Positions 1 through 20,438 of a stretch of DNA of 64,000 nt are shown here, one piece after another. The position numbers and the translations under genes are program-made. The notes under the pieces were generated by a model that saw only the letters and a program-made list of their open reading frames with translations, searched no databases and was not told the DNA's origin. Each line of letters begins with the position of its first letter. The first letter of the stretch is position 1. This stretch comes from Salvia splendens (lineage: Eukaryota > Streptophyta > Magnoliopsida > Lamiales > Lamiaceae), in the NCBI RefSeq assembly GCF_004379255.2, contig NW_024599428.1:50424-114423 (forward strand), in the 5' to 3' direction.

Positions 1-903
1 TCTGACCTATTCGAAAAGCCAAAGCGGATGACGAAATCAGCCGCGCGCCGACCACAGGATAACTACTGCTCCTACCATCAAGACCACGGTCACGATACTG
101 AGGAGTGCAGAAACTTGGCTGCAGGTATCGATGTTCTTGTGAAGGCAGGGACATTGAAAAAATACCGAAGTAAGCAGCCAAAGAAGAATAAAAAGCAGAG
201 TGGTGCGAACTGCGCTCCTCAGGATCCGAAAAGGCAGCCGGATCCCGAAGACGATGACGAGCCGCAATATGATGGAGTAATCCAGACTATTGACGCGCTC
301 CCTGCCGGGAAGACCAAGTCGTCCCTAAAGTCAGAACGCAGAGGCTCCAATCGAGAGGAGCCAACGCATAAAAGGCTGAAGCAGGACGAAGTGATTACGT
401 TCTCGGCTGCTGATCCCGTCCCGGCCATCTCTCCTCACCAAGACGCCATTGTCATCCAAGCCGGAGTGGCAAACAAACTGATCCACAGGGTGTTTGTGGA
501 TACAGGAGCGTCGGTTAGCATTCTTTTTAAAGAGTGCTTCGACAAACTAGAAGTGGACCCAGCTCGGCTCAGTCCGGCTCCGCTTCCCCTGAAGAGCTTC
601 ACTCAGGAGGACACCCGCCCTGAAGGTATTATCAGCCTTCCGATCACGGTGGGGAAAGCGCCTACTAGCTCCAGTACGATGATTGAGTTTTTCGTGGTGA
701 AAGCTCGGTCCCCGTACAACGTCATCCTGGGAAGAGACTGGCTCAACACAGTTCGGGCCGTTTGCTCCACCTATCACCTCACCATCAAGATCCCTACTAA
801 AGGAGGGATAGCGGTCATCCGAGGTGACCAAAAGAGAGCAAAGGAATGTCTGCAAATTGCGCTTAGAAGTGCCGAGCAGTCAGATCGGCACCACCAAGCA
901 TAG
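1..903 (+). CDS. Gag-protease polyprotein, C-terminal part (copy 1)
   Basis: This is the last ~300 residues of the Gag-Pro protein whose full 694-residue version is seen in copy 2. The frame is open from base 1. It holds a zinc-knuckle-like Cys/His cluster (CSYHQDHGHDTEEC) and, after a lysine-rich acidic linker, a retropepsin domain with the active-site motif FVDTGAS near 496-516 and a later ILGRDWL. The protease would cleave the Gag-Pol polyprotein during particle maturation. The frame ends at TAG 901-903; the next in-frame codons lead directly into Pol. Confidence 0.92.
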   Translation, partial: SDLFEKPKRMTKSAARRPQDNYCSYHQDHGHDTEECRNLAAGIDVLVKAGTLKKYRSKQPKKNKKQSGANCAPQDPKRQPDPEDDDEPQYDGVIQTIDALPAGKTKSSLKSERRGSNREEPTHKRLKQDEVITFSAADPVPAISPHQDAIVIQAGVANKLIHRVFVDTGASVSILFKECFDKLEVDPARLSPAPLPLKSFTQEDTRPEGIISLPITVGKAPTSSSTMIEFFVVKARSPYNVILGRDWLNTVRAVCSTYHLTIKIPTKGGIAVIRGDQKRAKECLQIALRSAEQSDRHHQA

Positions 904-909
904 CAATCA
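901..909 (+). promoter_or_regulatory. Putative stop-codon readthrough site between Gag-Pro and Pol
   Basis: Gag-Pro ends with TAG followed by CAATCA. The Pol frame is the same frame, and no other stop separates them between 904 and the first Pol ATG at 931. UAG followed by CARYYA is the context known from tobamovirus replicase readthrough, and CAATCA fits it exactly. The inference is that a fraction of ribosomes read through to give Gag-Pro-Pol, which sets the Gag:Pol ratio. The identical motif is kept in copy 2. Confidence 0.65.
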
Positions 910-3900
910 CAGCAGCCGGAGTCAGAGGCGATGACCGAAGTCATACCGGAGCCGAACTCGATGACAGTTCAGCTGTACGAAGACGATCCATCCAGAACGG
1001 TTAAGATCGGCTTCGCGGGAACGCCCCTACTTCGGGAAAAAACCATCCAGCTCCTCAAGGAGTATAAAGACGTCTTTGCATGGTCTCCGTTGGACATGAC
1101 CGGAGTGCCCCCCGAGGTAATCACTCATCGGTTAAATATTGATCCTTCAGTCCGGCCGATAAAACAGAAGCAAAGACTCTTTGCGGCAGAACGAAGTCAA
1201 GTCATCCATGACGAAGTCCGTCAATTATTGAAGGCGGATGTGTTATTCGAAGTGAAGTATCCTTCGTGGGTGGCCAATCCTGTCATGATCAAGAAAAAGG
1301 AAGGAGGATGGCGGATGTGCATAGATTTCACCGATCTAAATAAGCACTGTCCCAAAGATTGCTATCCCCTTCCGAACATAGATAAAAAAGTAGAAGCTTT
1401 GATAGGCTTTGAAATTTTTTGTTTTCTTGATCTGTACAAAGGATACCATCAAGTTTTAATGGATGAGATTGACGCTTCAAAAACGGCCTTCATTACTGAT
1501 TTCGGCATTTTCGCTTATAAAAAGATGCCATTCGGTTTAAAGAATGCCGGAGCCACTTATCAAAGGATGGTAGACAAGCTTTTTCGGCACCTGATTGGAA
1601 AGGAGGTCGAAGTGTATGTTGACGATATAGTCGTCAAAAGCAAAAGCACTTCGGAGTACGAGCACAACCTCAAGTCCACTCTCAACGTGCTCAAAAAAGC
1701 CAACCTCAAACTTAATCCCCAAAAGTGTACCTTTTTGGTAGATTCGGGAAAGTTTCTGGGTTGTTGGGTTTCAAAGGACGGACTCAAGGCAAACCCCTCA
1801 AAAGTTCAAATCGTTCAGAACATGGCAATGCCGAAGTCCATACATGACGTGCAAAGGCTAACCGGATGTCTAGCCGCACTGAATCGATTCCTTTCCCAAG
1901 CAGCCGAAAAGCAACTGCCGTTCTTCAAGGTGTTGAAAAAGGCACCAAAGTTCGAGTGGGGAGCCGAGCAGAAAAAGGCCTTTGACGAGCTCAAAAGTTA
2001 TCTAGCCGAGCTTCCTATTCTCTCTGCTCCAACCGAAGCCGAAGTAATATTCTTATACTTAGCGGCATCGGATCAAACCATCAGCGCGGTGCTTGTACGA
2101 GAAGAAGGCCTAAAGCAGCTTCCCATCTATTTTACAAGCCGAGCATTAAGAGGTCCAGAAACCAGGTATCAACCACTGGAAAAGATTGCTCTGGCATTAG
2201 TAAATGCAGCGAGGAGACTGCGGCCATACTTCTATGCTCACAAGGTATGCGTCTTAACTGATCTGCCACTTCGGCAAGTGTTGACCAAACCAGAAGCATC
2301 AGGCAGAATCGCCAAGTGGGCTATAGAGTTGGGAGAGCACACAATTGAATATCTACCTCGGAAAGCCATCAAGGGACAAGCCTTGGCAGATTTTCTTGCA
2401 GAAGCGAAGTTCGATCAAGCAATTCCTGTTATTGCCGAACAGAAGAATTCTGCCAATGCCGAACTAGCACAGCCCTTGGAATCCGAAGTAGAGCCGCCGG
2501 ACTGCTGGAGCGGGTTCGTAGATGGAGCTTCGAACAAGATGGGAAGTGGAGCTGGTATTTTACTTGTCGCTCCCGACGGACACGAGGTAGCCTACTCACT
2601 TCGGTTCTTATTCCCCACTACTAATAATGAAGCCGAGTACGAAGCCCTCCTGGCCGGACTCCAGTTAGCGCAAAGCCTGCTCGTCAAATCTCTCAAAGTC
2701 CATTGTGATTCACAAGTCATAGTAAATCACATGTTGGGTACAAGTGAAGCCCGTGACGAGAGAATGAAGAAGTATTTGGACAAAGCGCAAAGCATCAGCC
2801 GAAGTTTCTCCTATTTTCGGATAATCCGCATTCCCAGAGCGGAAAATAGCCGAGCAGATGCCTTAAGTAAGTTGGCCTCAGATCCGAGCTCAAAGGCGGA
2901 AGAATTAATGCATCGAAGCATTGATGAAGCCGAGGTACATTCAGTATCCAGCTCGCCGAACTGGATGACGCCGATCTTGCAGTATCTGGATCAAGGACAA
3001 TTGCCCGAGGATAAGAGAGAAGCTCGGAAGATCACGTGCCGAGCACTTCGGTACGAACTTCATGAAGGAGTCCTCTTTAGAAAGTCTTACCTCCAGCCGT
3101 TATTGCGGTGCGTAGGACCAGAAGAGACGGACTACATCCTCAGAGAAGTTCATGAAGGATCGTGCGGTAGCCACATCGGAGCCAGAGCTTTAGCTAAAAA
3201 AGTTCTGAGATGGGGATATTATTGGCCAACCATGGTACAAGAGGCAGTGCAGCTCGTCAAGAAGTGTACGAAGTGCCAAATTCATGCAAATGTCCCAAGG
3301 ATGCCGCAGACCGATCTATACACTATGCAAAGCCCTTGGCCTTTCATGCAATGGGGCATAGACATAGTGGGACCACTTCCTCAAGCTCCTCGGCAAATGA
3401 AATTCCTTATCGTTGCCGTGGACTACTTCACGAAGTGGGTGGAGGCGGAACCATTAGCTACGATAACGAGCTCAAAGGCATTGGACTTCGTCTGGAAGAA
3501 CATAGTGTGCCGATTTGGCATACCCCACATCCTCATCTCGGATAATGGGACCCAGTTCACCGACAAGACGTTCAAGAATTGGTGCCAAGAGCTGAACATT
3601 CAACAGCGGTTCACTTCGGTCTCCCATCCCCAAGCAAACGGACAAACGGAAGTAACGAACCGGATTCTGGTGAAAGGGTTAAAAGCTCGGTTAGAACAAG
3701 CCAAAGGACAATGGGTAGAAAATCTCCCTCAAGTCCTATGGTCCTATCGAACTACGCCCAAAACCTCCAACGGTGAAACTCCGTATAGTCTGGTGTACGG
3801 CACTGAAGCCGTAATTCCGGTGGAGATCGGCGTACCCAGTCCCCGAACTCTAAATTTCTCCTCAGAAATGAATGACGACGGACTGAGAGCAGAACTAGAT

Positions 3901-4194
3901 CTCGCCGAAGAAAGAAGAGAATTGGCGTGCATAAAAGCAGCCAAGTATAAGGAGCAAGTAGCCCGATATTATAACCAAAGGGTGAAAAAGCTTCAATTTC
4001 AAGTGGGAGATCTCGTCTTGAGAAACAACGAAGTAAGCCGAGCAGAAAAGCTGGGCAAACTCGAACCCACATGGGAGGGTCCATATCGGGTGTCAGAGGT
4101 CCTCGGCAAAGGGTCTTATAAATTGACTCACATGTCAGGAGAACAAGTACCCCGAACATGGCACGTCTCCAACCTCAAGAAGTTCCACTTGTAA
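904..4194 (+). CDS. Pol: reverse transcriptase, RNase H, integrase (copy 1)
   Basis: The frame is open from the leaky stop to 4194; an ATG at 931 gives 1087 residues. Reverse transcriptase lies at about residues 90-330, with the catalytic YVDD in VEVYVDDIVVKSK. RNase H follows at about 525-660 (FVDGASN, NNEAEYEA, VHCDSQ). Integrase has an HHCC zinc finger ending in CTKCQ, and a DDE core (GIDIVGP, ISDNGTQF, QANGQTE). A short C-terminal domain with HVSNLKKF ends the protein and no chromodomain is seen. No internal stop or frameshift is visible, so it may still encode active enzyme. It converts element RNA to DNA and inserts it. Confidence 0.95.
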   Translation, partial: QSQQPESEAMTEVIPEPNSMTVQLYEDDPSRTVKIGFAGTPLLREKTIQLLKEYKDVFAWSPLDMTGVPPEVITHRLNIDPSVRPIKQKQRLFAAERSQVIHDEVRQLLKADVLFEVKYPSWVANPVMIKKKEGGWRMCIDFTDLNKHCPKDCYPLPNIDKKVEALIGFEIFCFLDLYKGYHQVLMDEIDASKTAFITDFGIFAYKKMPFGLKNAGATYQRMVDKLFRHLIGKEVEVYVDDIVVKSKSTSEYEHNLKSTLNVLKKANLKLNPQKCTFLVDSGKFLGCWVSKDGLKANPSKVQIVQNMAMPKSIHDVQRLTGCLAALNRFLSQAAEKQLPFFKVLKKAPKFEWGAEQKKAFDELKSYLAELPILSAPTEAEVIFLYLAASDQTISAVLVREEGLKQLPIYFTSRALRGPETRYQPLEKIALALVNAARRLRPYFYAHKVCVLTDLPLRQVLTKPEASGRIAKWAIELGEHTIEYLPRKAIKGQALADFLAEAKFDQAIPVIAEQKNSANAELAQPLESEVEPPDCWSGFVDGASNKMGSGAGILLVAPDGHEVAYSLRFLFPTTNNEAEYEALLAGLQLAQSLLVKSLKVHCDSQVIVNHMLGTSEARDERMKKYLDKAQSISRSFSYFRIIRIPRAENSRADALSKLASDPSSKAEELMHRSIDEAEVHSVSSSPNWMTPILQYLDQGQLPEDKREARKITCRALRYELHEGVLFRKSYLQPLLRCVGPEETDYILREVHEGSCGSHIGARALAKKVLRWGYYWPTMVQEAVQLVKKCTKCQIHANVPRMPQTDLYTMQSPWPFMQWGIDIVGPLPQAPRQMKFLIVAVDYFTKWVEAEPLATITSSKALDFVWKNIVCRFGIPHILISDNGTQFTDKTFKNWCQELNIQQRFTSVSHPQANGQTEVTNRILVKGLKARLEQAKGQWVENLPQVLWSYRTTPKTSNGETPYSLVYGTEAVIPVEIGVPSPRTLNFSSEMNDDGLRAELDLAEERRELACIKAAKYKEQVARYYNQRVKKLQFQVGDLVLRNNEVSRAEKLGKLEPTWEGPYRVSEVLGKGSYKLTHMSGEQVPRTWHVSNLKKFHL

Positions 4195-4440
4195 GAGACA
4201 AAGTCCGGTCAGTCTGTCTTGTGTCTAGTTCGGTCATAGGGGTACATGTTTTTATTTGTTTGTTTTTACTTGTACCTTTTACTTGTCGTTTTATAAAAAG
4301 TTTAAAGTTTTTTCTTTCGTCTTTTTCATTTTTTCTCTATGTGTTTTGTCTCTATGTGCTTGTCGTCTCTTACAAATGGTACCAAGGTATATCGTTCTTT
4401 AAAGACTGATCCCCTTTTTAGATCGATTATTAAAGACTAT

Positions 4441-4616
4441 TGTGAGTCCAAGCTTCTAAGGAGGATATAAGACCACAATTCAGCTTAACAAGCAGTCCGT
4501 CTGAAACGAACTGCAATAAGCCAACGATTGTGAGTCCAAGCTTCTCAGGAAGATACAAGACCACAATTCGGCTTAAGAAATAAGCACTTCGTCTGAAACG
4601 AACTGCAATAAGGGAA
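4441..4616 (+). repeat. Two ~88-bp direct repeats downstream of Pol (copy 1)
   Basis: A block beginning GTGAGTCCAAGCTTCT occurs at 4441 and again at about 4530. Each copy is followed by a segment ending in GAACTGCAATAAG. Shorter repeats (GGGAAAGTCCGATCC and relatives) continue to about 4815. The same arrangement occurs inverted in copy 2 near 13900-14110. No coding function is seen. Confidence 0.7.
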
Positions 4617-4839
4617 AGTCCGATCCACGCGATAAACCTCGCCGAATTAGGACGACCAAGTTCGGTCAAAGAAGTTTACCTCATAAGACCGGGGACGACC
4701 ACGTCTAGTCAAAGAGGTTTACTGCATAAGACCACTTCGGTTAACTGGGAAAGTCCGATCCACGCGATAAAACTCGCCGAATTAGGACAAGGGAAAGTTC
4801 GATCCCGGCGACAAAAATCGCCAAATTAGAACACAAAGA

Positions 4840-5105
4840 CGAGTCCGGTCAAAGATGTTTATTTCGTCAGACCAAAGACGAGTCCGGTCAAAGATGTTTA
4901 TTTCATCGGACCAAAGACGAGTCCGGTCAAAGATGTTTATTTCATCAGACCAAAGACGAGTCCGGTCAAAGATGTTTATTTCATCAGACCAAAGACGAGT
5001 CCGGTCAAAGATGTTTATTTCATCGGACCAAAGACGAGTCCGGTCAAAGAAGTCTACTTCATAAGACCAAGGACCAAGTCCGGTCAAAGAAGTTTACTTC
5101 ATAAG
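4840..5105 (+). repeat. 39-bp minisatellite between Pol and antisense gene (copy 1)
   Basis: A 39-bp unit built around GAGTCCGGTCAAAGATGTTT is repeated head to tail. There are about five near-identical units and two more divergent ones at the right end. Because 39 is divisible by three, open frames appear on both strands, but these are a by-product of the repeat. It lies between the convergent 3' ends of Pol and the antisense gene. Confidence 0.9.
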
Positions 5106-5249
5106 ACCGAGGACAAGTATGATGAAATTTTTTCGCTAAGCTGTAAATACAGTGTTAGAAGCGAAAACAAAATTTCATTTTTCAAATCTTGTTCGGCATA
5201 CAACTCCGCTACCCTACAGAATGGCGTTACGCTATTACAAAGGACTATT

Positions 5250-8096
5250 CTACTGTCCAGGGTTGCTAAAGTTAAGCCACCTATCTGCAAAATCCTCTGG
5301 AAGCCGAGTTCGGTTGTTCCGAGCAGATGAAGAATAAGCAGGTCGACGAGATGCTATCCTCGACCCAACGCCTCTTCCCCGAGCCCGAGAAGTCCTAACA
5401 CCTCGGCGATGAAGAGTCTCTGCAATAATCATCTGCTGATCTTGCTCGCTCATAGTCACAACTCCTCGGCGAATTTCAGTCCGTCCCTGTCTTGACGATT
5501 CCGGTTGCTCCTGAGCCCGTTCTCGTCTTGACGTTTCCGGCTGTTCCGGAGTTCGTTGTTGACTGGAAGTAGGATTTTGAACAAGGGAACCAGAGGCTTG
5601 ATCTGGAGTGCGAGCATCTGTTGGCACGATATGCCGAAGGAATCTTTCTATGGAGGGGCGCCGAGAAAGAACAATGTCGTACCGAGAAGCCCAGCGCCGT
5701 AATGATTTCACAACTTGTTGGCAAGCCGAGCTCTCCAGCGCATTGTTCCTCCGGAGTACATGATATTCCTCCCACAGTTCGTCAACTCGACTCTGAACAT
5801 CTGATATGGTCAAGCCCCCGCGCACACGGATGTAATCCTCGTACGCAGTCCTCTCAGCAATGGTCGTATTCAGCTCGGCCTCCAGACCCTTCTTATCGGA
5901 CTCTAAGTCCTTATTATCGGCCTCCAGCTTCACTAAACGAGCCAGAAGCTCGTCATTCTTCGTCTGATCGGCTATAGCTCTTTTCTCAGCTTCGTCTAAA
6001 GCCGAAGAGTACAGCCGTTTCCAGTGAAGTATCTCCATCTCCTTGAGTACAAAGCAGCTATATTAGTTCGGCAGCTGTACCGAGCAGATAGTAAAATACA
6101 ACAGAAATAAAGGCGAGTACGAAAAGCTATACGAAGACAAGTGTAGAGAATTTTTCATTCGCAAGGAAAATTTTTACACTAGGAGGGCTTCAAGGCCATT
6201 TTACAAGGAAGAAACTAGACTAAGAGAAGGGAGACGAAATCATACTCCACCAGCTTCGTCTCCGGCTCCTTGGTCTGGTTCAGCTTCTTTCTCCTGAGCT
6301 ACTTCAGCCTCGGCCTCGCCTCCTGCCGGCCTCGCCTCCGCCTCCTGATCGGCTTCCTTCTCCGGATGCCCGGCCCGCTCGACTTCGGCCTCCAGCTCCA
6401 GCGGCTCGGCCTCACCCTCTCCGTTGTAAGTCGAAGCGGGTGAAACGGGTCCCACGGAGGCAAAGATAGCCTCCAGGTTCTCGTCCCGATCAGCTCGACA
6501 ACTCCGGACTTGGTCTGCAGAAAGCAGGACCGAGGATGAAGCGAGCTCCTCAAGGAGCGGCAGATTCTGAAGCCGAGCTGCTATCTCTCGGCTGTACAGA
6601 GGCAGCACGACGTCGGCCCCCTGCTCGCCCTTATCGGCAATTAGCCTTACCAGACTACCGACAAAGGCCGAGAACTGGCTGCTCAAAAAGAGTTTCTCCG
6701 TGTAAACACGGAGAGCCTCCCCCTGGGCAGCCACGGCGGCAGCATCCCTCCGTTTCGTCTGCTCTCGCTGGATGACGAGCTGGTTTTTGGCAAACTGAGC
6801 TTCATCCTGGGCCGAAATCCTAGCAGCTCTGGCTTTCTCAAAGTTAGCCTCAGCCTGTTCGGCCCGATGACAAGCAGCCGCCAACTTCCTCTGCATCTCA
6901 GCATAGTCATTGGACGCTTTGGAGAGTTCGACGGCGACGAGCTTGGAGAGCATATCGTTCCTCTGAAAATGGATAAAGAAAAAAGTCAACAAAGGGGCCA
7001 CAAAAAATACAGGAAAAAAGCAAGGCCAGAAAATCAAGAAGAGAATTCACCTCGGCGAAGTCCGTGGGCCATAAAAACGGCTCACAGATATGTTCCGAAG
7101 GAGGCGCCAAGACCACGTCTTTCTCTGGCGCTCTCGGGGGCTTCTGGGCCTTCCCCCTTCCCTTTGCCGAAGTCGACTCCGGCTTCTTCGGATCCGAAGA
7201 GGTTTTTTGCCTTTTCGGAGTCCTCTCGGCATCAGACGCCGAGCTGGTGGTTTTCGGCCTCTCCGGCTCCTTGGACTCCGAAGATTTGCGGCTAGCCTTA
7301 CTCAGCATGTACACTGCCAAAAAGCAAGAAAGCAAAGTCAGATTTTCTTTGTTAAAGCAGTAGAGCATAAAGATAAAGAGAAATCCTCACCCTCGGCCTC
7401 TTCGTCCGAAGACGAGATGTCGAACACGACGTCGCCCTTGACGAGCTCAGACTCCGTGTATTGTTTCCTAACTATGGGAATCTTGTTGAGCTCGCCATCG
7501 AGCTCGTCCAACGGTTCAGGCCGAGGGTGACGGATAACGGACTCCGGCCCTCTCCAGGGAAAACTAGGAGCCGCGGTCCTATCATAGTAGAAGAAGCGAT
7601 TTTGCCACTTCGGCCACTTCGTTTTACAAAAGGCTCTAAAGGGCTGTAAAGGGATCAAGTAAAACCAAGACCCCTTCCTCTTAAATTGAAAGAATTTAAG
7701 GATCGCCTTCAAAGACAAATCCCTTCCTAACCTACGGAGTTCGGCAGCGAAGGCCGACAAGTGCCTCCAAGAGTTCGGAGTCACTTGGCCTAAAGGAAGC
7801 TGAAAAAAATCTAGTAAATCTATAAAGGCAGAAGGGAGGGGGAAACGAAGCCCGCATTCTAAGCAGGCCTCGTACACGGTGGCGTACCCCTCCGGCGGGG
7901 AGTCAGCCCTATGATCACCGTCAGGTACCACCGCCTTCCCCCCAGGAAAAAAGTATTTTTCGGGTAGGGATATCACAGTATCCTTACTCAAAATACTATG
8001 GAAATACTCTACGGTCTTCTCCCCGGACTCTTTCCGGCCAGAAGACCCCTTATCCCCTTTCCTACCGCTACCCGACTCCGAAGAAGAAGAAGACAT
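5250..8096 (-). CDS. Spliced antisense gene of the retrotransposon (copy 1)
   Basis: The gene lies opposite to Gag-Pol. Four exons read in one frame: 8096-7391, 7313-7051, 6962-6246 and 6041-5250. All junctions are GT-AG, and together they give 825 residues. The first exon carries a globular domain resembling the plant 'putative gypsy type transposon' family (PF04195, from memory; motif YFFPGGKAV and a Trp/Phe-rich segment). Exon 2 is Ser/Lys/Pro-rich. Exons 3 and 4 are Ala/Glu/Lys-rich with long coiled-coil stretches, an acidic tail in exon 3 and an Arg-rich end in exon 4. Function is unknown. Antisense genes have been described in Tat-lineage elements such as maize Grande. Confidence 0.8.
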
Positions 8097-8412
8097 TTTT
8101 CTTACTTTTTGAAGATGAAGAAAGTCTGAAGAAGCTCTTGAAAGCGGAAGAAAATTTCTCGAAAAAGAGAGAGTATAGAAGACGCAACAGCAAAAGTGTT
8201 CAAATGAGGAAAAAGGAGCATATTTATCAGATTCGGGAAAGATTTCGAGATCGTTGCGCCGTTTCGAATCCCACCTTTTCAGGATTCAACGGCCGGATTT
8301 TACTGTCGCATTTAATGCAGGCACGCGCAAGGCACGTCCCCTGACGTCAGCCTCCCCCTTACCATTATCCAGAATGCCGAAGTGACTCACCTCGCCGAAG
8401 TGATTCACTTCG

Positions 8413-8429
8413 CTTTTCGGGGGGGGTAG
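8413..8429 (+). other. Polypurine tract (copy 1)
   Basis: A run with eight consecutive G residues (CTTTTCGGGGGGGGTAG) ends one base before the 3' LTR. This is the expected plus-strand primer position for a Ty3/gypsy element. The same tract is found inverted in copy 2. Confidence 0.85.
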
Positions 8430-10382: not shown

Positions 10383-13233
10383 ATGTCTTCTTCTTCTTCG
10401 GAGTCGGGTAGCGGTAGGAAAGGGGATAAGGGGTCTTCTGGCCGGAAAGGGTCCGGGGAGAAGACCGTAGAGTATTTCCATAGTATTTTGAGTAAGGATA
10501 CTGTGATATCCCTACCCGAAAAATACTTTTTTCCTGGGGGGAAAGCGGTGGTCCCTGACGGCGATCATAGGGCTGACTCCCCGCCGGAGGGGTACGCCAC
10601 CGTGTACGAGGCCTGCTTAGAATGCGGGCTTCGTTTCCCCCTCCCTTCTGCCTTTATAGATTTACTAGATTTTTTTCAGCTTCCTTTAGGCCAAGTGACT
10701 CCGAACTCTTGGAGGCACTTGTCGGCCTTCGCTGCCGAACTCCGTAGGTTAGGAAGGGATTTGTCTTTGAAGGCGATCCTTAAATTCTTTCAATTTAAGA
10801 GGAAGGGGTCTTGGTTTTACTTGATCCCTTTACAGCCCTTTAGGGCCTTTTGTAAAACGAAGTGGCCGAAGTGGCAAAATCGCTTCTTCTACTATGACAG
10901 GACCGCGGCTCCTAGTTTTCCCTGGAGAGGGCCGGAGTCCGTTATCCGTCACCCTCGGCCTGAACCGTTGGACGAGCTCGATGGCGAGCTCAACAAGATT
11001 CCCATAGTTAGGAAACAATACACGGAGTCTGAGCTCGTCAAGGGCGACGTCGTGTTCGACATCTCGTCTTCGGACGAAGAGGCCGAGGGTGAGGATTTCT
11101 CTTTATCTTTATGCTCTACTGCTTTAACGAAGAAAATCTGACTTTGCTTTCTTGCTTTTTGGCAGTGTACATGCTGAGTAAGGCTAGCCGCAAATCTTCG
11201 GAGTCCAAGGAGCCGGAGAGGCCGAAAACCACCAGCTCGGCGTCTGATGCCGAGAGGACTCCGAAAAGGCAAAAAACCTCTTCGGATCCGAAGAAGCCGG
11301 AGTCGACTTCGGCAAGTAGGAAGGGGAAGGCCCAGAAGCCCCCGAGAGCGCCGGAGAAAGATGTGGTCTTGGCGCCTCCTTCGGAACATATCTGTGAGCC
11401 GTTTTTATGGCCCACGGACTTCGCCGAGGTGAACTCTCTTCTTGATTTTCTGGCCTTGCTTTTTTTTCTGTATTTTTTGTGGCCCCTTTGTTGACTCTTT
11501 TTTTTTTATCCATTTTCAGAGGAACGATATGCTCTCCAAGCTCGTCGCCGTCGAACTCTCCAAAGCGTCCAATGACTATGCCGAGATGCAGAGGAAGTTG
11601 GCGGCTGCTTGTCATCGGGCCGAACAGGCTGAGGCTAACTTTGAGAAGGCCAGAGCTGCTAGGATTTCGGCCCAGGATGAAGCTCAGTTTGCCAAAAACC
11701 AGCTCGTCATCCAGCGAGAGCAGACGAAGCGGAGCGATGCTGCTGCCGTGGTTGCCCAAGGGGAGGCTCTCCGTGTTTACACGGAGAAACTCTTTTTGAG
11801 CAGCCAGTTCTCGGCCTTTGTCGGTAGCCTGGTAAGGCTAATTGCCGATAAGGGCGAGCAGGGGGCCGACGTCGTGCTGCCTCTGTACAGCCGAGAGATA
11901 GCAGCTCGGCTTCAGAATCTGCCGCTCCTTGAGGAGCTCGCTTCATCTTCGGTCCTGCTTTCTGCAGACCGAGTCCGGAGTTGCCGAGCTGATCGGGACG
12001 AGAACCTGGAGGCTATCTTTGCCTCCGTGGGACCCGTTTCACCCGCTTCGACTTACAACGGAGAGGGTGAGGCCGAGCCGCTGGAGCTGGAGGCCGAAGT
12101 CGAGCGGGCCGGGCATCCGGAGAAGGAGGCCGATCAGGAGGCGGAGGCGAGGCCGGCAGGAGACGAGGCCGGGGCTGAGGTAGTTCAGGAGAAAGAAGCT
12201 GAACCAGACCAAGGAGCCGGAGACGAAGCTGGCGAAGTATGATTTCGTCTCCCTTCTCTTAGTCTAGTTTCTTCCTTGTAAAATGGCCTTGAAGCCCTCC
12301 TAGTGTAAAAAATTTTCCTTGTGAATGAAAAATTCTCTACACTTGTCTTCGTATAGCTTTTCGTACTCGCCTTTATTCCTGTAGTATTTTACTATCTGCT
12401 CGGTACATCTGCCGAACTAATATAGCTGCTTTGTACTCAAGGAGATGGAGATACTTCACTGGAAACGGCTGTACTCTTCGGCTTTAGACGAAGCTGAGAA
12501 AAGAGCTATAGCCGATCAGACGAAGAATGACGAGCTTCTGGCTCGTTTAGTGAAGCTGGAGGCCGATAATAAGGACTTAGAGTCCGATAAGAATGATCTG
12601 GAGGCCGAGCTGAATACGACCATTGCTGAGAGGACTGCGTACGAGGATTACATCCGTGTGCGCGGGGGAATGACCATATCAGATGTTCAGAGTCGAGTTG
12701 ACGAGCTGTGGGAGGAATATAATGTACTCCGGAGGAACAATGCGCTGGAGAGCTCGGCTTGCCAACAAGTCGTGACATCATTGCGGCGCTGGGCCTCTCG
12801 GTACGACATAGTTCTTTCTCGGCGCCCCTCCATAGAAAGATTCCTTCGGCATATCGCGCCAACAGATGCTCGCACTCCAGATCAAACCTCTGGTTCCCTT
12901 GTTCAAAATCCTACTCCCAGCCAACAACGAACTCCGGAACAGCCGGAAACGTCAAGACGAGAACGGGCTCAGGAGCAACCGGAATCGTCAAGACAGGGAC
13001 GGACTGACATTCGCCGAGGAGTTGTGACTATGAGCGAGCAAGATCAGCAGATGATTATTGCAGAGACTCTTCATCGCCGAGGTGTTAGGACTTCTCGGGC
13101 TCGGGGAAGAGGCGTTGGGTCGAGGATAGCATCTCGTCGACCTGCTTATTCTTCATCTGCTCGGAACAACCGAACTCGGCTTCCAGAGGATTTTGCAGAT
13201 AGGTGGCTTAACTTCAGCAATCCTGGACAGTAG
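10383..13233 (+). CDS. Spliced antisense gene of the retrotransposon (copy 2)
   Basis: There are four exons: 10383-11088, 11166-11428, 11520-12236 and 12442-13233. The introns are 77, 91 and 205 bp with GT-AG borders. The phases fit exactly: exon 1 ends with one base that completes a Val codon in exon 2, and the other junctions fall between codons. The spliced product is 825 residues. The N-terminal domain (residues about 25-235) resembles the plant gypsy-associated PF04195 family. The middle is basic and Ser/Pro-rich, and the C-terminal half is coiled coil ending in an Arg-rich segment. A TATA-like AATAAATATGC lies about 130 bp upstream (near 10250). Exon and splice-site identity with copy 1 argues that splicing is maintained. 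Role unknown. Confidence 0.8.
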
Positions 13234-13376
13234 AATAGTCCTTTGTAATAGCGTAACGCCATTTTGTAGGGTAGCTGAGTTGTATGCCGAACAAGATTTG
13301 AAAAATGAAATTTTGTTTTCGCTTCTAACACTGTATTTACAGCTTAGCGAAAAAATTTCATCGTACTTGTCCTCGG

Positions 13377-13716
13377 TCTTATGAAGTAAACTTCTTTGAC
13401 CGGACTCGTCTTTGGTCTGATGAAATAAACATCTTTGACCGGACTCGTCTTCGGTCTGATGAAATAAACATCTTTGACCGGACTCGTCTTTGGTCTGATG
13501 AAATAAACATCTTTGACCGGACTCGTCTTTGGTCTGATGAAATAAACATCTTTGACCGGACTCGTCTTTGGTCTGATGAAATAAACATCTTTGACCGGAC
13601 TCGTCTTTGGTCTGATGAAATAAACATCTTTGACCGGACTCGTCTTTGGTCTGATGAAATAAACATCTTTGACCGGACTCGTCTTTGGTCTGATGAAATA
13701 AACATCTTTGACCAGA
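13377..13716 (-). repeat. 39-bp minisatellite between antisense gene and Pol (copy 2)
   Basis: This is the same 39-bp unit as in copy 1, here with about nine units, eight of them nearly identical. The higher copy number shows expansion or contraction since the two copies diverged. Related shorter repeats continue to about 14120. Confidence 0.9.
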
Positions 13717-14365
13717 CTTGGTTTGTGTTCTAATTTGGCGATTTTTGTCGCCGGGATCGAACTTTCCCTTGTCCTAATTCGGCGAGTTTTATCGCGTGGA
13801 TCGGACTTTCCCAGTTAACCGAAGTGGTCTTATGCAGTGAACCTCTTTGACCAGACATGGTCGTCCCCGGTCTTATGAGGTAAACTTCTTTGACCGAACT
13901 TGGTCGTCCTAATTCGGCGAGGTTTATCGCGTGGATCGGACTTTCCCTTATTGCAGTTCGTTTCAGACGAAGTGCTTATTAAGCTGAATTGCGGTCTTGT
14001 ATCCTCCTTGGAAGCTTGGACACACAATCGTTGGCTTATTGCAGTTCGTTTCAGACGGACTGCTTGTTAAGCTGAATTATGGTCTTATATCCTCCTTAGA
14101 AGCTTGGACTCACAATAGTCTTTAATAATCGATCTAAAAAAGGGGATCAGTCTTTAAAGAACGATATACCTTGGTACCATTTGTAAGAGACGACAAGCAC
14201 ATAGAGACAAAACACATAGGGGAAAAAAATGAAAAAGACGAAAGAAAAAAACTTTAGACTTTTTATAAAACGACAAGTGAAAAGGTACAAGTAAAAACAA
14301 ACAAATAAAAACATGTACCCCTATGACCGAACTAGACACAAGACAGACTGACCGGACTTTGTCTC
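13717..14365 (-). other. Non-coding spacer downstream of Pol (copy 2)
   Basis: This is the inverted counterpart of 4195-4839. It contains the degenerate ~88-bp direct repeats and GGAAAGTCCGATCC-type motifs, then a T/A-rich segment just after the Pol stop. No gene is seen; it probably holds the 3' untranslated region of the Pol transcript. Confidence 0.6.
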
Positions 14366-17300
14366 TTACAAGTGGAACTTCTTGAGGTTGGAGACGTGCC
14401 ATGTTCGGGGTACTTGTTCTCCTGACATGTGAGTCAATTTATAAGACCCTTTGCCGAGGACTTCTGACACCCGATACGGACCCTCCCATGTGGGTTCGAG
14501 TTTGCCCTGCTTTTCTGCTCGGCTTACTTCGTTGTTTCTCAAGACGAGATCTCCCACTTGAAATTGAAGCTTTTTCACCCTTTGGTTATAATACCGGGCT
14601 ACTTGCTCCTTATACTTGGCTGCTTTTATGCACGCCAATTCTCTTCTTTCTTCGGCGAGATCTAGTTCGGCTCTCAGTCCGTCGTCATTCATTTCTGAGG
14701 AGAAGTTTAGAGTTCGGGGACTGGGTACGCCGATCTCCACCGGAATTACGGCTTCAGTGCCGTACACCAGACTATACGGAGTTTCACCGTTGGAGGTTTT
14801 GGGTGTAGTTCGGTAGGACCATAGGACTTGAGGGAGATTTTCTACCCATTGTCCTTTGGCTTGTTCTAAACGAGCTTTTAACCCTTTCACCAGAATCCGG
14901 TTCGTTACTTCCGTTTGTCCGTTTGCTTGGGGATGGGAGACCGAAGTGAACCGCTGTTGAATGTTCAGCTCTTGGCACCAATTCTTGAACGTCTTGTCGG
15001 TGAACTGAGTCCCATTATCCGAGATGAGGATGTGGGGTATGCCAAATCGGCACACTATGTTCTTCCAAACGAAGTCCAATGCCTTTGAGCTCGTTATCGT
15101 AGCTAATGGTTCAGCCTCCACCCACTTCGTGAAGTAGTCCACGGCAACGATAAGGAATTTCATTTGCCGAGGAGCTTGAGGAAGTGGTCCCACTATGTCT
15201 ATGCCCCATTGCATGAAGGGCCAAGGGCTTTGCATAGTGTATAGATCGGTCTGCGGCATCCTTGGGACATTTGCATGAATTTGGCACTTCGTACACTTCT
15301 TGACGAGCTGCACTGCCTCTTGTACCATGGTTGGCCAATAATATCCCCATCTCAGAACTTTTTTAGCTAAAGCTCTGGCTCCGATGTGGCTACCGCACGA
15401 TCCTTCATGAACTTCTCTGAGGATGTAGTCCGTCTCTTCTGGTCCTATGCACCGCAATAACGGCTGGAGGTAAGACTTTCTAAAGAGGACTCCTTCATGA
15501 AGTTCGTACCGAAGTGCTCGGCACGTGATCTTCCGAGCTTCTCTCTTATCCTCGGGCAATTGTCCTTGATCCAGATACTGCAAGATCGGCGTCATCCAGT
15601 TCGGCGAGCTGGATACTGAATGTACCTCGGCTTCATCAATGCTTCGATGCATTAATTCTTCCGCCTTTGAGCTCGGATCTGAGGCCAACTTACTTAAGGT
15701 ATCTGCTCGGCTATTTTCCGCTCTGGGAATGCGGATTATCCGAAAATAGGAGAAACTTCGGCTGATGCTTTGCGCTTTGTCCAAATACTTCTTCATTCTC
15801 TCGTCACGGGCTTCACTTGTACCCAACATGTGATTTACTATGACTTGTGAATCACAATGGACTTTGAGAGATTTGACGAGTAGACTTTGCGCTAACTGGA
15901 GTCCGGCCAGGAGGGCTTCGTACTCGGCTTCATTATTAGTAGTGGGGAATAGGAACCGAAGTGAGTAGGTTACCTCGTGTCCGTCGGGAGCGACAAGTAG
16001 AATGCCAGCTCCACTTCCCATCTTGTTTGAAGCTCCATCTACGAATCCGCTCCAGCAGTCCGGCGGCTCTACTTCGGATTCCAAGGGCTGTGCTAGTTCG
16101 GCACTGGCAGAATTCTTCTGTTCGGCAATAACAGGAATTGCTTGATCGAACTTCGCTTCTGTAAGAAAATCTGCCAAGGCTTGTCCCTTGATGGCTTTCC
16201 GAGGTAGATATTCAATTGTGTGCTCTCCCAACTCTATAGCCCACTTGGCGATTCTGCCTGATGCTTCTGGTTTGGTCAACACTTGCCGAAGTGGCAGATC
16301 AGTTAAGACGCATACCTTGTGAGCATAGAAGTATGGCCGCAGTCTCCTTGCTGCATTTACTAATGCCAGAGCAATCTTTTCCAGAGGTTGATACCTGGTT
16401 TCTGGACCTCTTAATGCTCGGCTTGTAAAATAGATGGGAAGCTGCTTTAGGCCTTCTTCTCGTACAAGCACCGTGCTGATGGTTTGATCCGATGCCGCTA
16501 AGTATAAGAATATTACTTCGGCTTCGGTTGGAGCAGAGAGAATAGGAAGCTCGGCTAGATAACTTTTGAGCTCGTCAAAGGCCTTTTTCTGCTCGGCTCC
16601 CCACTCGAACTTTGGTGCCTTTTTCAACACCTTGAAGAACGGCAGTTGCTTTTCGGCTGCTTGGGAAAGGAATCGATTCAGTGCGGCTAGACATCCGGTT
16701 AGCCTTTGCACGTCATGTATGGACTTCGGCATTGCCATGTTCTGAACGACTTGAACTTTTGAGGGGTTTGCCTTGAGTCCGTCCTTTGAAACCCAACAAC
16801 CCAGAAATTTTCCCGAATCTACCAAAAAGGTACACTTTTGGGGATTAAGTTTGAGGTTGGCTTTCTTGAGCACGTCGAGGGTGGACTTGAGGTTGTGCTC
16901 GTACTCCGAAGTGCTTTTGCTTTTGACGACTATATCGTCAACATACACTTCGACCTCCTTTCCAATCAGGTGCCGAAAAAGCTTGTCTACCATCCTTTGA
17001 TAAGTGGCTCCGGCATTCTTTAAACCGAATGGCATCTTTTTATAAGCGAAAATGCCGAAATCAGTAATGAAGGCCGTTTTTGAAGCGTCAATCTCATCCA
17101 TTAAAACTTGATGGTATCCTTTGTACAGATCAAGAAAACAAAAAATTTCAAAGCCTATCAAAGCTTCTACTTTTTTATCTATGTTCGGAAGGGGATAGCA
17201 ATCTTTGGGACAGTGCTTATTTAGATCGGTGAAATCTATGCACATCCGCCATCCTCCTTCCTTTTTCTTGATCATGACAGGATTGGCCACCCACGAAGGA

Positions 17301-17656
17301 TACTTCACTTCGAATAACACATCCGCCTTCAATAATTGACGGACTTCGTCATGGATGACTTGACTTCGTTCTGCCGCAAAGAGTCTTTGCTTCTGTTTTA
17401 TCGGCCGGACTGAAGGATCAATATTTAACCGATGAGTGATTACCTCGGGGGGCACTCCGGTCATGTCCAACGGAGACCATGCAAAGACGTCTTTATACTC
17501 CTTGAGGAGCTGGATGGTTTTTTCCCGAAGTAGGGGCGTTCCCGCGAAGCCGATCTTAACCGTTCTGGATGGATCGTCTTCGTACAGCTGAACAGTCATC
17601 GAGTTCGGCTCCGGTATGACTTCGGTCATCGCCTCTGACTCCGGCTGCTGTGATTG
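14366..17656 (-). CDS. Pol: reverse transcriptase, RNase H, integrase (copy 2)
   Basis: The frame is open from the leaky stop at 17657-17659; the first ATG is at 17629, giving 1087 residues. It has the same domain order and catalytic motifs as copy 1: YVDD in reverse transcriptase, FVDGASN and CDSQ in RNase H, an HHCC zinc finger, and GIDIVGP and ISDNGTQF in integrase. It differs from copy 1 by about nine residues, none in these motifs. No frameshift is seen. Confidence 0.95.
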   Translation of the reverse strand, partial: QSQQPESEAMTEVIPEPNSMTVQLYEDDPSRTVKIGFAGTPLLREKTIQLLKEYKDVFAWSPLDMTGVPPEVITHRLNIDPSVRPIKQKQRLFAAERSQVIHDEVRQLLKADVLFEVKYPSWVANPVMIKKKEGGWRMCIDFTDLNKHCPKDCYPLPNIDKKVEALIGFEIFCFLDLYKGYHQVLMDEIDASKTAFITDFGIFAYKKMPFGLKNAGATYQRMVDKLFRHLIGKEVEVYVDDIVVKSKSTSEYEHNLKSTLDVLKKANLKLNPQKCTFLVDSGKFLGCWVSKDGLKANPSKVQVVQNMAMPKSIHDVQRLTGCLAALNRFLSQAAEKQLPFFKVLKKAPKFEWGAEQKKAFDELKSYLAELPILSAPTEAEVIFLYLAASDQTISTVLVREEGLKQLPIYFTSRALRGPETRYQPLEKIALALVNAARRLRPYFYAHKVCVLTDLPLRQVLTKPEASGRIAKWAIELGEHTIEYLPRKAIKGQALADFLTEAKFDQAIPVIAEQKNSASAELAQPLESEVEPPDCWSGFVDGASNKMGSGAGILLVAPDGHEVTYSLRFLFPTTNNEAEYEALLAGLQLAQSLLVKSLKVHCDSQVIVNHMLGTSEARDERMKKYLDKAQSISRSFSYFRIIRIPRAENSRADTLSKLASDPSSKAEELMHRSIDEAEVHSVSSSPNWMTPILQYLDQGQLPEDKREARKITCRALRYELHEGVLFRKSYLQPLLRCIGPEETDYILREVHEGSCGSHIGARALAKKVLRWGYYWPTMVQEAVQLVKKCTKCQIHANVPRMPQTDLYTMQSPWPFMQWGIDIVGPLPQAPRQMKFLIVAVDYFTKWVEAEPLATITSSKALDFVWKNIVCRFGIPHILISDNGTQFTDKTFKNWCQELNIQQRFTSVSHPQANGQTEVTNRILVKGLKARLEQAKGQWVENLPQVLWSYRTTPKTSNGETPYSLVYGTEAVIPVEIGVPSPRTLNFSSEMNDDGLRAELDLAEERRELACIKAAKYKEQVARYYNQRVKKLQFQVGDLVLRNNEVSRAEKQGKLEPTWEGPYRVSEVLGKGSYKLTHMSGEQVPRTWHVSNLKKFHL

Positions 17657-17659
17657 CTA
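17651..17659 (-). promoter_or_regulatory. Putative stop-codon readthrough site (copy 2)
   Basis: Read on the - strand, TAG (17659-17657) is followed by CAATCA (17656-17651), in frame with both Gag-Pro and Pol. It is identical to copy 1 and fits the UAG-CARYYA readthrough context. Confidence 0.65.
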
Positions 17660-19741
17660 TGCTTGGTGGTGCCGATCTGACTGCTCGGCACTTCTAAGCG
17701 CAATTTGCAGACATTCCTTTGCTCTCTTTTGGTCACCTCGGATGACCGCTATCCCTCCTTTAGTAGGGATCTTGATGGTGAGGTGATAGGTGGAGCAAAC
17801 GGCCCGAACTGTGTTGAGCCAGTCTCTTCCCAGGATGACGTTGTACAGGGACCGAGCTTTCACCACGAAAAACTCAATCATCGTACTGGAGCTAGTAGGC
17901 GCTTTCCCCACCGTGATCGGAAGGCTGATAATACCTTCAGGGCGGGTGTCCTCCTGGGTGAAGCTCTTCAGGGGAAGCGGAGCCGGACTGAGCCGAGCTG
18001 GGTCCACTTCTAGTTTGTCGAAGCACTCTTTAAAAAGAATGCTAACCGACGCTCCTGTATCCACAAACACCCTGTGGATCAGTTTGTTTGCCACTCCGGC
18101 TTGGATGACAATGGCGTCTTGGTGAGGAGAGATGGCCGGGACGGGATCAGCAGCCGAGAACGTAATCACTTCGTCCTGCTTCAGCCTTTTATGCGTTGGC
18201 TCCTCTCGATTGGAGCCTCTGCGTTCTGACTTTAGGGACGACTTGGTCTTCCCGGCAGGGAGCGCGTCAATAGTCTGGATTACTCCATCATATTGCGGCT
18301 CGTCATCGTCTTCGGGATCCGGCTGCCTTTTCGGATCCTGAGGAGCGCAGTTCGCACCACTCTGCTTTTTATTCTTCTTTGGCTGCTTACTTCGGTATTT
18401 TTTCAATGTCCCTGCCTTCACAAGAACATCGATACCTGCAGCCAAGTTTCTGCACTCCTCAGTATCGTGACCGTGGTCTTGATGGTAGGAGCAGTAGTTA
18501 TCCTGTGGTCGGCGCGCGGCTGATTTCGTCATCCGCTTTGGCTTTTCGAATAGGTCAGAGTGCAGTTCGAAAATTTCCGCTCTCGGCTTGTTCAGCGGTA
18601 CGAACTGAGCGGGCGGCTTCTCGGGATTGAGACGAGGTCCCAATCTGTCTTGCACCGGAGCCCTTTGAATTCTTTCAAATGGAGTCCGGCGAGGATGCCC
18701 CTGATCGCTATGATCGGGCTTCCTTCTGTCTCCTCGAGACGATGAGCTGTCTAACGACCGTTTGCGACGATCTGCCTCATCGGCCCGGGAGTACTGGTCC
18801 GCAATGTCCCACATCTCCTGAGCTGTCTGCGGACCGCACTCAACGAGCTTCCTGTAGAGAGCTCCGGGCAGGATTCCATTTTGGAATGCCGAAATGACAA
18901 GCAGATCGTTGAGATCGTCTACTTGCAGGCATTCCTTGTGGAATCTTGTCATAAAGTCGCTGATTTTTTCGTCGCGACCTTGACGAATGGAAAGCAGCTG
19001 AGCCGAAGTGATTCGGGCTTCCGCTTTCTGAAAAAACCTCCTGTGGAAGGCATCCATTAGATCTCGGTAAGATCTGATGCTGCCCTGGGGGAGGCTATCG
19101 AACCACCTTCTCGCGTTCCCGATGAGCAGCTCGGGAAACAGCTTGCACATGTGGACCTCGTTGAGACCCTGGTTCGCCATGTTATATTGATAGCGCCCCA
19201 AGAAATCGTGAGGGTCCACGAGCCCGTCGTAAGTCATCGACGGAGTTCGGTAGTTCTGTGGTAGGGGAGTTCGGGTGATGTCGTCCGAGAACGGAGTCTT
19301 CAGTGCTCCGTACACGGCGAATCCGATATCTCGTCGGTATGGAGGAGATTGAGTTCTCCTGTGATTCCGGTACCGAGGAGGAGCAGGAATATGTCGGGGT
19401 TGAGGATTCTTTCTCCTGGGAGATGCGACACTACTGCGGTAGTGACTTTCTTGTGCGGAGGGAGAAGGAGAATCCGTCGTTTTCGTCTCCGGCTGCTTTT
19501 GGCTTTTTCGCAGGAAGGTTAAGAATTCCTCCTGCTTTTCAGCCAAAAACTGCTTGACAGCCTCATTCAAATCGGGCTGCTGGGAAGACTCAGTGGGACG
19601 ATTTTTGGAGCGGCTTGTTCCTTCGCCATGAGAACTGGTGGTGGATTTATCCCTAGGCTGTTTTCCCGACCTATGAGATGGATTGGCTTCCTCCTGGTTC
19701 TCACGGGCAGGAATACGGGTATTCTGCGATCTGGTATGCAT
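17657..19741 (-). CDS. Gag-protease polyprotein, full length (copy 2)
   Basis: 694 residues. It begins with a basic, Gln/Ser-rich N-terminus. A retrotransposon Gag capsid domain lies at about residues 175-320 (ARRWFDSLPQGSI, FHRRFFQ, FMTRFHKECLQVDDLND). A Cys/His cluster near residue 420 (CSYHQDHGHDTEEC) follows, then an acidic linker. A retropepsin domain with FVDTGAS lies at about 560. Gag forms the virus-like particle and the protease matures it. The frame stops at TAG 17659-17657, from which readthrough would extend into Pol. Confidence 0.95.
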   Translation of the reverse strand: MHTRSQNTRIPARENQEEANPSHRSGKQPRDKSTTSSHGEGTSRSKNRPTESSQQPDLNEAVKQFLAEKQEEFLTFLRKSQKQPETKTTDSPSPSAQESHYRSSVASPRRKNPQPRHIPAPPRYRNHRRTQSPPYRRDIGFAVYGALKTPFSDDITRTPLPQNYRTPSMTYDGLVDPHDFLGRYQYNMANQGLNEVHMCKLFPELLIGNARRWFDSLPQGSIRSYRDLMDAFHRRFFQKAEARITSAQLLSIRQGRDEKISDFMTRFHKECLQVDDLNDLLVISAFQNGILPGALYRKLVECGPQTAQEMWDIADQYSRADEADRRKRSLDSSSSRGDRRKPDHSDQGHPRRTPFERIQRAPVQDRLGPRLNPEKPPAQFVPLNKPRAEIFELHSDLFEKPKRMTKSAARRPQDNYCSYHQDHGHDTEECRNLAAGIDVLVKAGTLKKYRSKQPKKNKKQSGANCAPQDPKRQPDPEDDDEPQYDGVIQTIDALPAGKTKSSLKSERRGSNREEPTHKRLKQDEVITFSAADPVPAISPHQDAIVIQAGVANKLIHRVFVDTGASVSILFKECFDKLEVDPARLSPAPLPLKSFTQEDTRPEGIISLPITVGKAPTSSSTMIEFFVVKARSLYNVILGRDWLNTVRAVCSTYHLTIKIPTKGGIAVIRGDQKRAKECLQIALRSAEQSDRHHQA

Positions 19742-19798
19742 TTTTTGGGTGGAAAAAATGGATCAAAAATTCGCTTTATCACAAATTTTGTTCTCTGT

Positions 19799-19816
19799 TT
19801 CCCACAGACGGCGCCA
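19799..19816 (-). other. Primer binding site (copy 2)
   Basis: One base inside the 5' LTR the - strand reads TGGCGCCGTCTGTGGGAA. The first nine bases match the complement of a tRNA 3' end, most like tRNA-Asp, and later bases fit less well. It primes minus-strand DNA synthesis. The tRNA assignment is tentative. Confidence 0.75.
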
Positions 19817-19817
19817 G

Positions 19818-20438
19818 TGATGGATCCGCGAATTATTGATGTTAGTAAATGCTGGTAGAGAATTATGACACAATGAATTTACGTGGTTCGATTTACTGAG
19901 GTAAATCTACGTCCACGGGGAGAAATGAGGGCAGGTTTGTATTGCTTGATCTGCGAAAATACAGCTTACAACACAGACTTGCTATAGGGTATTTTATCTC
20001 TAGAGAGCTTAACCTTTTTTCTATCTGATCTAAGCTCTATTTATACATTGAACTAGGATCGTGGTTTGCAGCCCCACTAACAAGATCGTGGGTGAGCAAT
20101 AACTGCTCAATAACTGCTTCGTACCACTAAATAGATCGTGGGTATAGCGGAGGTCGTGGAGGCCTTTCATGAGTCCACTAACTCCTAGTTCGGTCGAATG
20201 CTGAGACCGAACTGCTGGACTTTACCGATCAGCTCTTGCCGATCTGAGAGGAGAGCTTGACTGGTCGGCTTTTACCAAGCTGTAGGCTGAGTCCGAACTC
20301 TTCGGTCGCGGGCTGAGTCCGAACTCTTTGGTCGTGCCGAACTCTTTGGTGCCGAACAGGTACTCTTTCTTGGGCTCTGGGCTGATGGGCCGTCACTGTT
20401 ATTGGGCTTGCCATTAGGGCTTAGTTCGTACCCCATCA
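19818..20438 (-). repeat. 5' LTR of copy 2
   Basis: This 621-bp LTR is nearly identical to the one at 9430-10049. The differences I see are one extra T in a T-run and one substitution close to the outer tip. Transcription from its TATA box runs leftward through Gag-Pol. Confidence 0.95.

Follow-up and report, generated by a model that had tools for sequence, protein, structure and literature searches.

How two near-identical LTR retrotransposons came to lie in opposite orientation inside one gene, and whether such a pair could silence its own family, is the question raised by a 64,000-nucleotide stretch of Salvia splendens DNA (the window, to which plain coordinates refer). The window lies on contig C901; C9, C10 and C16 are other sequences in the same assembly. 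A 4CL protein encoded in the window is 100% identical to SASPL_157162 of Salvia splendens (scarlet sage), in line with this host. The preferred answer, with a probability of about 0.93, is that two separate recent retrotranspositions of one high-copy Retand (Ty3/gypsy) family occurred tail to tail in exons 1 and 2 of one copy of an RBOH gene.

Structure of the inverted pair

The features of the locus are as follows.

1..9027, + strand: element 1, Retand-type Ty3/gypsy LTR retrotransposon, first 1,856 bp outside at C901:48568-50423 (ends and length, 10,883 bp)
1..903, + strand: element 1 gag-protease ORF, end part, open at the left window edge (reading frame; counterpart in element 2 has Pfam matches)
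904..4194, + strand: element 1 pol, with RT, RNase H, second RNase H-like (RVT_3) and integrase (frame and Pfam)
4795..5106, no strand: 39-bp tandem-repeat array of element 1 (family D3), between pol and 3' LTR (repeat search)
5250..6062, - strand: element 1 antisense ORF, 270 aa (frame; no Pfam match)
6240..7046, - strand: element 1 antisense ORF, 268 aa (frame; no Pfam match)
7338..8285, - strand: element 1 antisense ORF with Transposase_28 (TRP28, PF04195), E 5.8e-12 (frame and Pfam)
8430..9027, + strand: element 1 3' LTR, 598 bp, with no difference from the 5' LTR of the element (C901:48568-49165)
9028..9032, + strand: element 1 target-site duplication GTTTC, right copy (left copy C901:48563-48567, outside the window)
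9028..9429, + strand: loop, remainder of RBOH exon 1, intron and most of exon 2 (limits approximate, from frames; NADPH_Ox in C10 exon 1)
9425..9429, + strand: element 2 target-site duplication GCGGC, left copy (sequence comparison)
9430..20438, - strand: element 2, same family, opposite orientation, complete from LTR to LTR, 11,009 bp (alignment)
9430..10049, - strand: element 2 3' LTR, 620 bp (alignment)
10194..11141, + strand: element 2 antisense ORF, counterpart of the element 1 TRP28 ORF (open frame; the Pfam match is that of element 1)
11433..12242, + strand: element 2 antisense ORF, 269 aa (frame)
12421..13233, + strand: element 2 antisense ORF, 270 aa (frame)
13317..13796, no strand: 39-bp tandem-repeat array of element 2 (family D1; repeat search)
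14366..17656, - strand: element 2 pol frame (reading frame)
17657..19762, - strand: element 2 gag-protease frame (frame and Pfam)
19818..20438, - strand: element 2 5' LTR, 621 bp (differs from the 3' LTR of the element by 1 mismatch and a single one-base gap)
20439..20443, + strand: element 2 target-site duplication GCGGC, right copy (sequence comparison)
20439..24505, + strand: remaining RBOH gene, with Ferric_reduct and NAD_binding_6 domains (exons read from frames)

An earlier note on this DNA had described two same-family elements in opposite orientation, with inverted arms of at least 9 kb around a 402-bp loop. Alignment and exact ends bear out the family, the orientation and the arms, and the element 2 end at 20438 and the 402-bp spacer (9028-9429) are exact. 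The arm length was right for the part inside the window; the real arms are longer (10,883 bp for element 1 and 11,009 bp for element 2, the whole inverted repeat spanning ~22 kb) because element 1 begins outside it, at C901:48568, 1,856 bp left of position 1, and ends at 9027. A repeat search recovered the arms piecewise, pairing parts of 1-8881 with parts of 9572-18559. I1-I5, I7 and I15 are the main pieces, at 95-99% complementarity, and extra pairs within the tandem arrays have 91-98%. Aligned end to end, the arms gave 10,676 matches, 189 mismatches and 162 gap columns in 18 runs, an identity of 98.26% (98.3%) without gaps, their interiors being known from a single assembly, in a genome where related copies number in the thousands. 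The longest perfect stretches were 713 and 700 bp, and the similarity is far beyond chance.

Element 1, like element 2, is complete from LTR to LTR; it has TG...CA ends and a PBS-like stretch after its 5' LTR. Its pol contains an RVT_1 domain, and the remaining Pfam domains lie in the order RT_RNaseH (residues 381-476), RVT_3 (538-656) and integrase (738-908). The gag-protease frame of element 2 matched Retrotrans_gag, with a weak match to gag-asp_proteas below the Pfam cut-off.

The host gene

Judged by its domains, the interrupted gene is a respiratory burst oxidase homolog (RBOH), an NADPH oxidase. Four pieces were scanned against Pfam (exon 1 as it stands on C10, the later exons as in the window), of which three matched, with NADPH_Ox, Ferric_reduct and NAD_binding_6 domains, and one had no match. 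Exon 1 also resembles 3a8r_A by sequence (E 8e-08), which we take to be a rice Rboh. With exon limits taken from reading frames, without a gene model, the nine exon segments compared were 98.5-100% identical to the copy on C10. Element 1 lies in exon 1 and element 2 in exon 2, so that both insertions do fall in one gene, as had been proposed, and the C901 copy has probably lost function. An Rfam scan of the window gave no match.

Origin of the two elements

The independence of the insertions, likewise claimed earlier, follows from their perfect 5-bp target-site duplications, since each element has its own and the two differ (GTTTC and GCGGC). Divergence between the elements (189 sites; pol dS 0.035) is far above that within either LTR pair, so the elements probably derive from different source copies. 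Both insertions are young: the LTR pairs differ at 0 of 598 aligned sites in element 1 (598 matches) and at 1 of 620 in element 2 (619 matches, plus 1 gap). The bounds on insertion age assume 1.3e-8 per site and year. Integrase would have inserted cDNA of one source copy into RBOH exon 1 and cDNA of another into exon 2.

An RBOH gene colinear with that of C901 is carried on C10, where both insertion sites are empty. GTTTC and GCGGC each occur singly in the empty site, and the loop and flanks are continuous. With these sites empty, it is very unlikely that the contig was misjoined where the elements sit or that the pair arose by inverted duplication. Inverted repeats of this length and similarity are well known to mislead assemblers, and C901 is not part of any chromosome-size sequence, which would favour inverted arms made by a misjoin or a fold-back chimera; the 189 differing sites and 18 gap runs between the arms, the separate duplication at each element and the uninterrupted loop and flanks on C10 nevertheless render such an artefact highly improbable. 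Even less credence can be given to a single insertion followed by inverted duplication or inversion. Close spacing and opposite orientation would suit that origin, but it predicts one common duplication sequence, where GTTTC and GCGGC are observed, and arms with roughly the divergence seen within the LTR pairs, where the arms are far more diverged. Both explanations were rejected because the duplications are distinct, the arms have diverged and C10 lacks both insertions.

Status of the contig

Over its whole length C901 is colinear with C10, the match comprising 14 main blocks of 97.6-99.95% identity (matches of at least 300 bp). Most likely it represents an alternative haplotype of C10:11,933,349-12,017,101; otherwise it would be a segmental duplicate of that range, of recent origin. 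If it were a duplicate and not an allele, the broken RBOH would be an extra locus, which is compatible with two insertions. The k-mer heterozygosity published for this inbred line is 0.06%, which favours a duplicate, and at such a value a 1-2% divergent haplotype fits only as a residual island. Just outside the colinear range, no second near-identical copy was found in the one stretch tested on each side; this also counts towards a duplicate, although single-copy flanking stretches fit a residual haplotype island as well as a duplication. Against a duplicate stand the end-to-end colinearity with one chromosome region and the presence of a more diverged copy (about 89-91% identity) on C9, and a segmental duplicate is accordingly considered unlikely, though not negligible. 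The C9 copy is uninterrupted at the element 2 site, the only site looked at.

Family membership and abundance

In dimensions and architecture the elements fit the Retand cluster 'Salvia splendens 1', as outlined in a survey of such elements (PMC11963269). The fit is one of sizes and layout; the cluster criterion is LTR identity of at least 90%, and the elements are candidate members. The host species is the same, and the values here and in the cluster are 598 and 620/621 bp against 597 for the LTR, 9,687 and 9,768 against 9,719 for the internal region, and 4,235 and 4,316 against 4,234 for the pol-3'LTR region; antisense TRP28 and one tandem array are common to both (PMC11963269). The long pol-3'LTR regions fall within the range given for Retand elements (2,933-6,566 bp), and the antisense TRP28 ORF (PF04195) that also defines them is present in element 1, with the matching frame open in element 2. 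A second RNase H-like domain beside the original one is described as a feature of the Tat group (PMC5348765), and RVT_3 lies after RT_RNaseH and before integrase here, probably representing an archaeal-type RNase H domain. According to its account of sources, the survey drew elements from chromosome assemblies, not scaffolds (PMC11963269), so the C901 copies are probably absent from it. By its recency rule element 1 would be classed as recent and element 2, with identical insertion repeats and LTRs differing by 1 mismatch and 1 gap, would not.

The earlier note had called a double insertion in one gene remarkable, which holds in part: close pairs are to be expected in the broad family because it is abundant, but are uncommon among the closest relatives. 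There are 3,978 family PPT-LTR junctions (up to 2 mismatches) in 806 Mb, and even scatter would place ~8 pairs within 402 bp, ~2 of them convergent. The 2,206 PBS junctions in the genome would give ~2.4 pairs, ~0.6 convergent. For the closest relatives, 1,235 exact LTR ends, halved to roughly 618 insertions, would give ~0.2 pairs, ~0.05 convergent (hand arithmetic), and a value of roughly 0.2 speaks against pure chance there. A genome-wide scan for exact 12-base LTR ends, confined to 390-450 bp spacing, found one convergent pair (the present locus), one pair whose LTR starts point away from each other (on C16) and no direct pairs. Among the matches listed, and as read by eye, 100 of the 2,206 PBS junctions included four neighbour pairs within 6 kb (three head-to-head, one direct; roughly 0.4 expected if even), and 100 of the 3,978 PPT-LTR junctions included two, both inverted (roughly 0.6 expected), which hints that the family clusters in the genome. 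The locus is a young and clean double insertion, ordinary as genome anatomy where the copies of a family run into the thousands.

Potential for hairpin RNA and silencing

Read-through over the 402-bp loop could yield an LTR-loop-LTR or longer hairpin RNA, which could in turn give siRNAs against the Retand family; by analogy with Mu killer (Muk) of maize, hairpin RNA and silencing from C901 are plausible. The closest literature found for inverted or tail-to-tail LTR pairs is that on Muk and EVD, and other such plant loci may be published. Muk, as described in PMC2563033, is a MuDR copy that has been inverted and in part duplicated; its transcript folds into a perfect hairpin of 2.4 kb, from which siRNAs are made. 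The C901 pair shares with it a transposon in inverted duplication and, in principle, a possible hairpin transcript, but consists of two LTR elements inserted separately, with arms 98.3% identical. Silencing of the Muk type would call for an inverted duplication of an element with active relatives; the inverted pair is present here, and its numerous relatives may include active copies. In the Arabidopsis rdr6-EVD line, EVD is reported nested in itself in antisense, its LTRs being separated by 2,562 and 1,942 bp (PMC11624286). Opposite-orientation LTRs of LTR retrotransposons, a proposed source of LTR hairpins (PMC11624286), are common to both cases, whereas the C901 elements are placed tail to tail with 402 bp of host DNA between them.

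An active silencing locus for the Retand family, working as Mu killer does, would be compatible with two insertions. RBOH sense (+) transcription would cross element 1 in sense, the loop and then element 2 in antisense; Muk offers a precedent, and tail-to-tail LTR insertions have been put forward as a route to LTR hairpins (PMC11624286). However, the transcript must get past both element 1 LTRs, and the Arabidopsis antisense nested insertion was not assayed as an siRNA source in the account given (PMC11624286), so that present activity seems improbable. Similarly improbable is the proposal that C901 is a natural, recent hairpin locus, in which read-through from the RBOH promoter or an LTR would generate LTR and internal siRNAs silencing the whole family in trans, as a retrotransposon counterpart of Mu killer. 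The onset of silencing in a still-young LTR retrotransposon family is an open question for which the pair is a candidate test locus. Since an empty matching copy exists in the same genome, the hairpin idea is testable by segregation if the two copies are alleles, and simple segregation could follow any such trans-silencing. The locus also marks a broken NADPH oxidase gene copy in an ornamental.

Structure and identity of the inverted pair

Two LTR retrotransposons of a single Ty3/gypsy family lie in opposite orientation within a respiratory burst NADPH oxidase (RBOH) gene, their 3' ends pointing at each other across a 402-bp loop of host DNA:

C901:48568 (left of the window; C901 is contig NW_024599428.1) to window 9027, + strand: element 1, 10,883 bp
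9430-20438, - strand: element 2, 11,009 bp

The inverted arms are 1.7% diverged; aligned end to end, they agree at 10,676 positions, mismatch at 189 and are gapped in 18 runs, with perfect runs of at least 21 bases covering 10,063 bases. The inverted pair with arms of at least 9 kb described in the earlier note is thus borne out by measurement; the physical instability that the note usually expects of near-palindromes would here concern arms 1.7% diverged and 402 bp apart.

Pfam places reverse transcriptase, RNase H, a second RNase H-like domain and integrase in pol, downstream of a gag-protease frame whose protease match falls under the cut-off. Of the three antisense ORFs that follow pol, one carries Transposase_28 and the other two have no Pfam match. 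This layout is the published Retand architecture. The cluster 'Salvia splendens 1' (Table 1, PMC11963269) is listed with 23 copies, LTR 597, internal region 9,719 and pol-3'LTR 4,234, and also with TRP28 and one tandem array; the corresponding lengths are 598, 9,687 and 4,235 in element 1 and 620/621, 9,768 and 4,316 in element 2. Between the two elements, dN/dS is 0.10 for pol and 0.31, 0.38 and 0.25 for the antisense ORFs, the latter from just 18, 36 and 15 changes. All three ORFs are open in both elements (5250-8285; 10194-13233), and these ratios, from small counts, hint that the antisense proteins are also under selection and important to the element.

Two insertions in one gene

The loop and flanks code for respiratory burst oxidase, according to Pfam scans of four pieces: NADPH_Ox lies in exon 1 (scanned in the copy on C10, another sequence of the assembly), Ferric_reduct and NAD_binding_6 lie in later exons, and the scan of the fourth piece gave no match. 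Across nine exon segments, C901 and C10 differ by 0-6 substitutions per segment and by one one-base gap near a segment's edge; within these segments the insertions are the sole evident damage to the C901 gene. RBOH is on the + strand, and its transcript would therefore carry element 1 as sense sequence and element 2 as antisense sequence.

LTR elements are well known to move by retrotransposition, and the anatomy of both copies shows it here. Element 1 is flanked on both sides by GTTTC and element 2 by GCGGC, and the C10 counterpart is continuous across both insertion points. On C10 the left-flank block extends to 11,965,739, past the start of the loop block at 11,965,735, and the loop block in turn extends to 11,966,139, past the start of the right-flank block at 11,966,135; such five-base overlaps are what target-site duplications predict. 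C9 holds a further copy, more diverged at about 89-91% identity, which is also unbroken at the element 2 site. A single insertion is rejected, since each element has its own duplication and C10 is unbroken at both points; independent insertion of one family twice in the same gene, as previously claimed, therefore holds.

The two LTRs of element 1 show no difference over 598 aligned sites; those of element 2 show one mismatch in 620 and one gap. At an adopted substitution rate of 1.3e-8, element 1 is younger than about 0.19 My (an upper bound) and element 2 is about 0.06 My old, with an upper bound of about 0.29. Pol dS between the elements is 0.035, far above the LTR-pair divergence, so the two derive from different source copies.

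Relationship of C901 to C10

C901, a contig of 114,423 bp whose final 64,000 bases form the window, is colinear with C10:11,933,349-12,017,101 in 14 main blocks at 97.6-99.95% identity, with several differences that include one 14.3-kb and one 5.3-kb insertion. We read C901 as an alternative haplotype of the C10 region. A duplication of that region is the less likely reading, with which a published heterozygosity of only 0.06% for Salvia splendens (PMC6030905) would agree. For one 1.7-kb stretch on each side just outside the colinear range (40 candidates scored for each), a second near-identical copy was not found; the stretches matched repeats and diverged C9 sequence (79% on the right, 72-83% in pieces on the left). 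Published assemblies comprise 808 Mb from PacBio data (PMC6030905) and 807 Mb, tetraploid and Hi-C-scaffolded (PMC8408255). A 4-coumarate:CoA ligase encoded in the window matches SASPL_157162 of Salvia splendens at 100% identity, which identifies scarlet sage as the host.

The 14.3-kb composite insertion (C901:32412-46758, left of the window) is lacking from C10 and lies 1.8 kb upstream of element 1. It holds two nested long direct-repeat pairs (622 bp at 99.2%; 1,334 bp at 99.6%) and looks like an LTR element nested within another. The 5.3-kb insertion (C10:11978280-11983598) is confined to the C10 copy, being missing between C901:82408 and 82646, and is a same-family relative, 79-88% identical in pieces. 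Its ends are near-identical repeats (552 bp at 98.7%), pol is wholly unmatched, as is the greater part of gag, and its frames are all shorter than 180 aa; it looks like a decayed non-autonomous derivative.

Frequency of the arrangement and possible silencing

Across the 806-Mb genome, 1,945 + 2,033 PPT-LTR junctions (at most 2 mismatches) and 1,067 + 1,139 PBS junctions of the family were counted, and reversed control patterns gave 0 matches. Even scatter would yield about 8 (PPT-LTR) or 2.4 (PBS) pairs within 402 bp, one quarter of them convergent. For a narrower group sharing the exact 17-base LTR end (634 + 601 ends), about 0.2 close pairs are expected. At C2:4653000-4660500, two more diverged relatives have convergent 3' LTRs spaced by about 3 kb; within the 7.5 kb compared, the left relative matches only over its LTR and about 70 bp preceding it. 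At C16:14761072-14761541, family LTR starts face apart with 446 bp between. The description of the double insertion as remarkable is therefore too strong for the broad family, and less so for close relatives: the close inverted arrangement is uncommon among young copies, and not unique in kind.

By analogy, the C901 pair could conceivably act in silencing. LTR-loop-LTR would be the most economical form of double-stranded RNA, since read-through beyond a single 3' LTR would suffice; for the full 11-kb hairpin, a transcript would have to pass through the whole of element 1. Mu killer of maize is a precedent for silencing by a hairpin from an inverted transposon (PMC2563033). For the Arabidopsis retrotransposon EVD, tail-to-tail LTR insertions have been put forward as silencing triggers, as a proposal without demonstration (PMC11624286).

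Other features of the window

A 97% direct repeat (32771-33070 and 35558-35857, 2.8 kb apart) encloses frames at 33947-35198 that resemble, by eye, copia-type reverse transcriptase; this is possibly a short copia element. Long proline/alanine-rich frames occur on the - strand at 56230-57756, over 30- and 39-bp tandem repeats, and at 59728-60495, and presumably resemble arabinogalactan-type cell-wall proteins.
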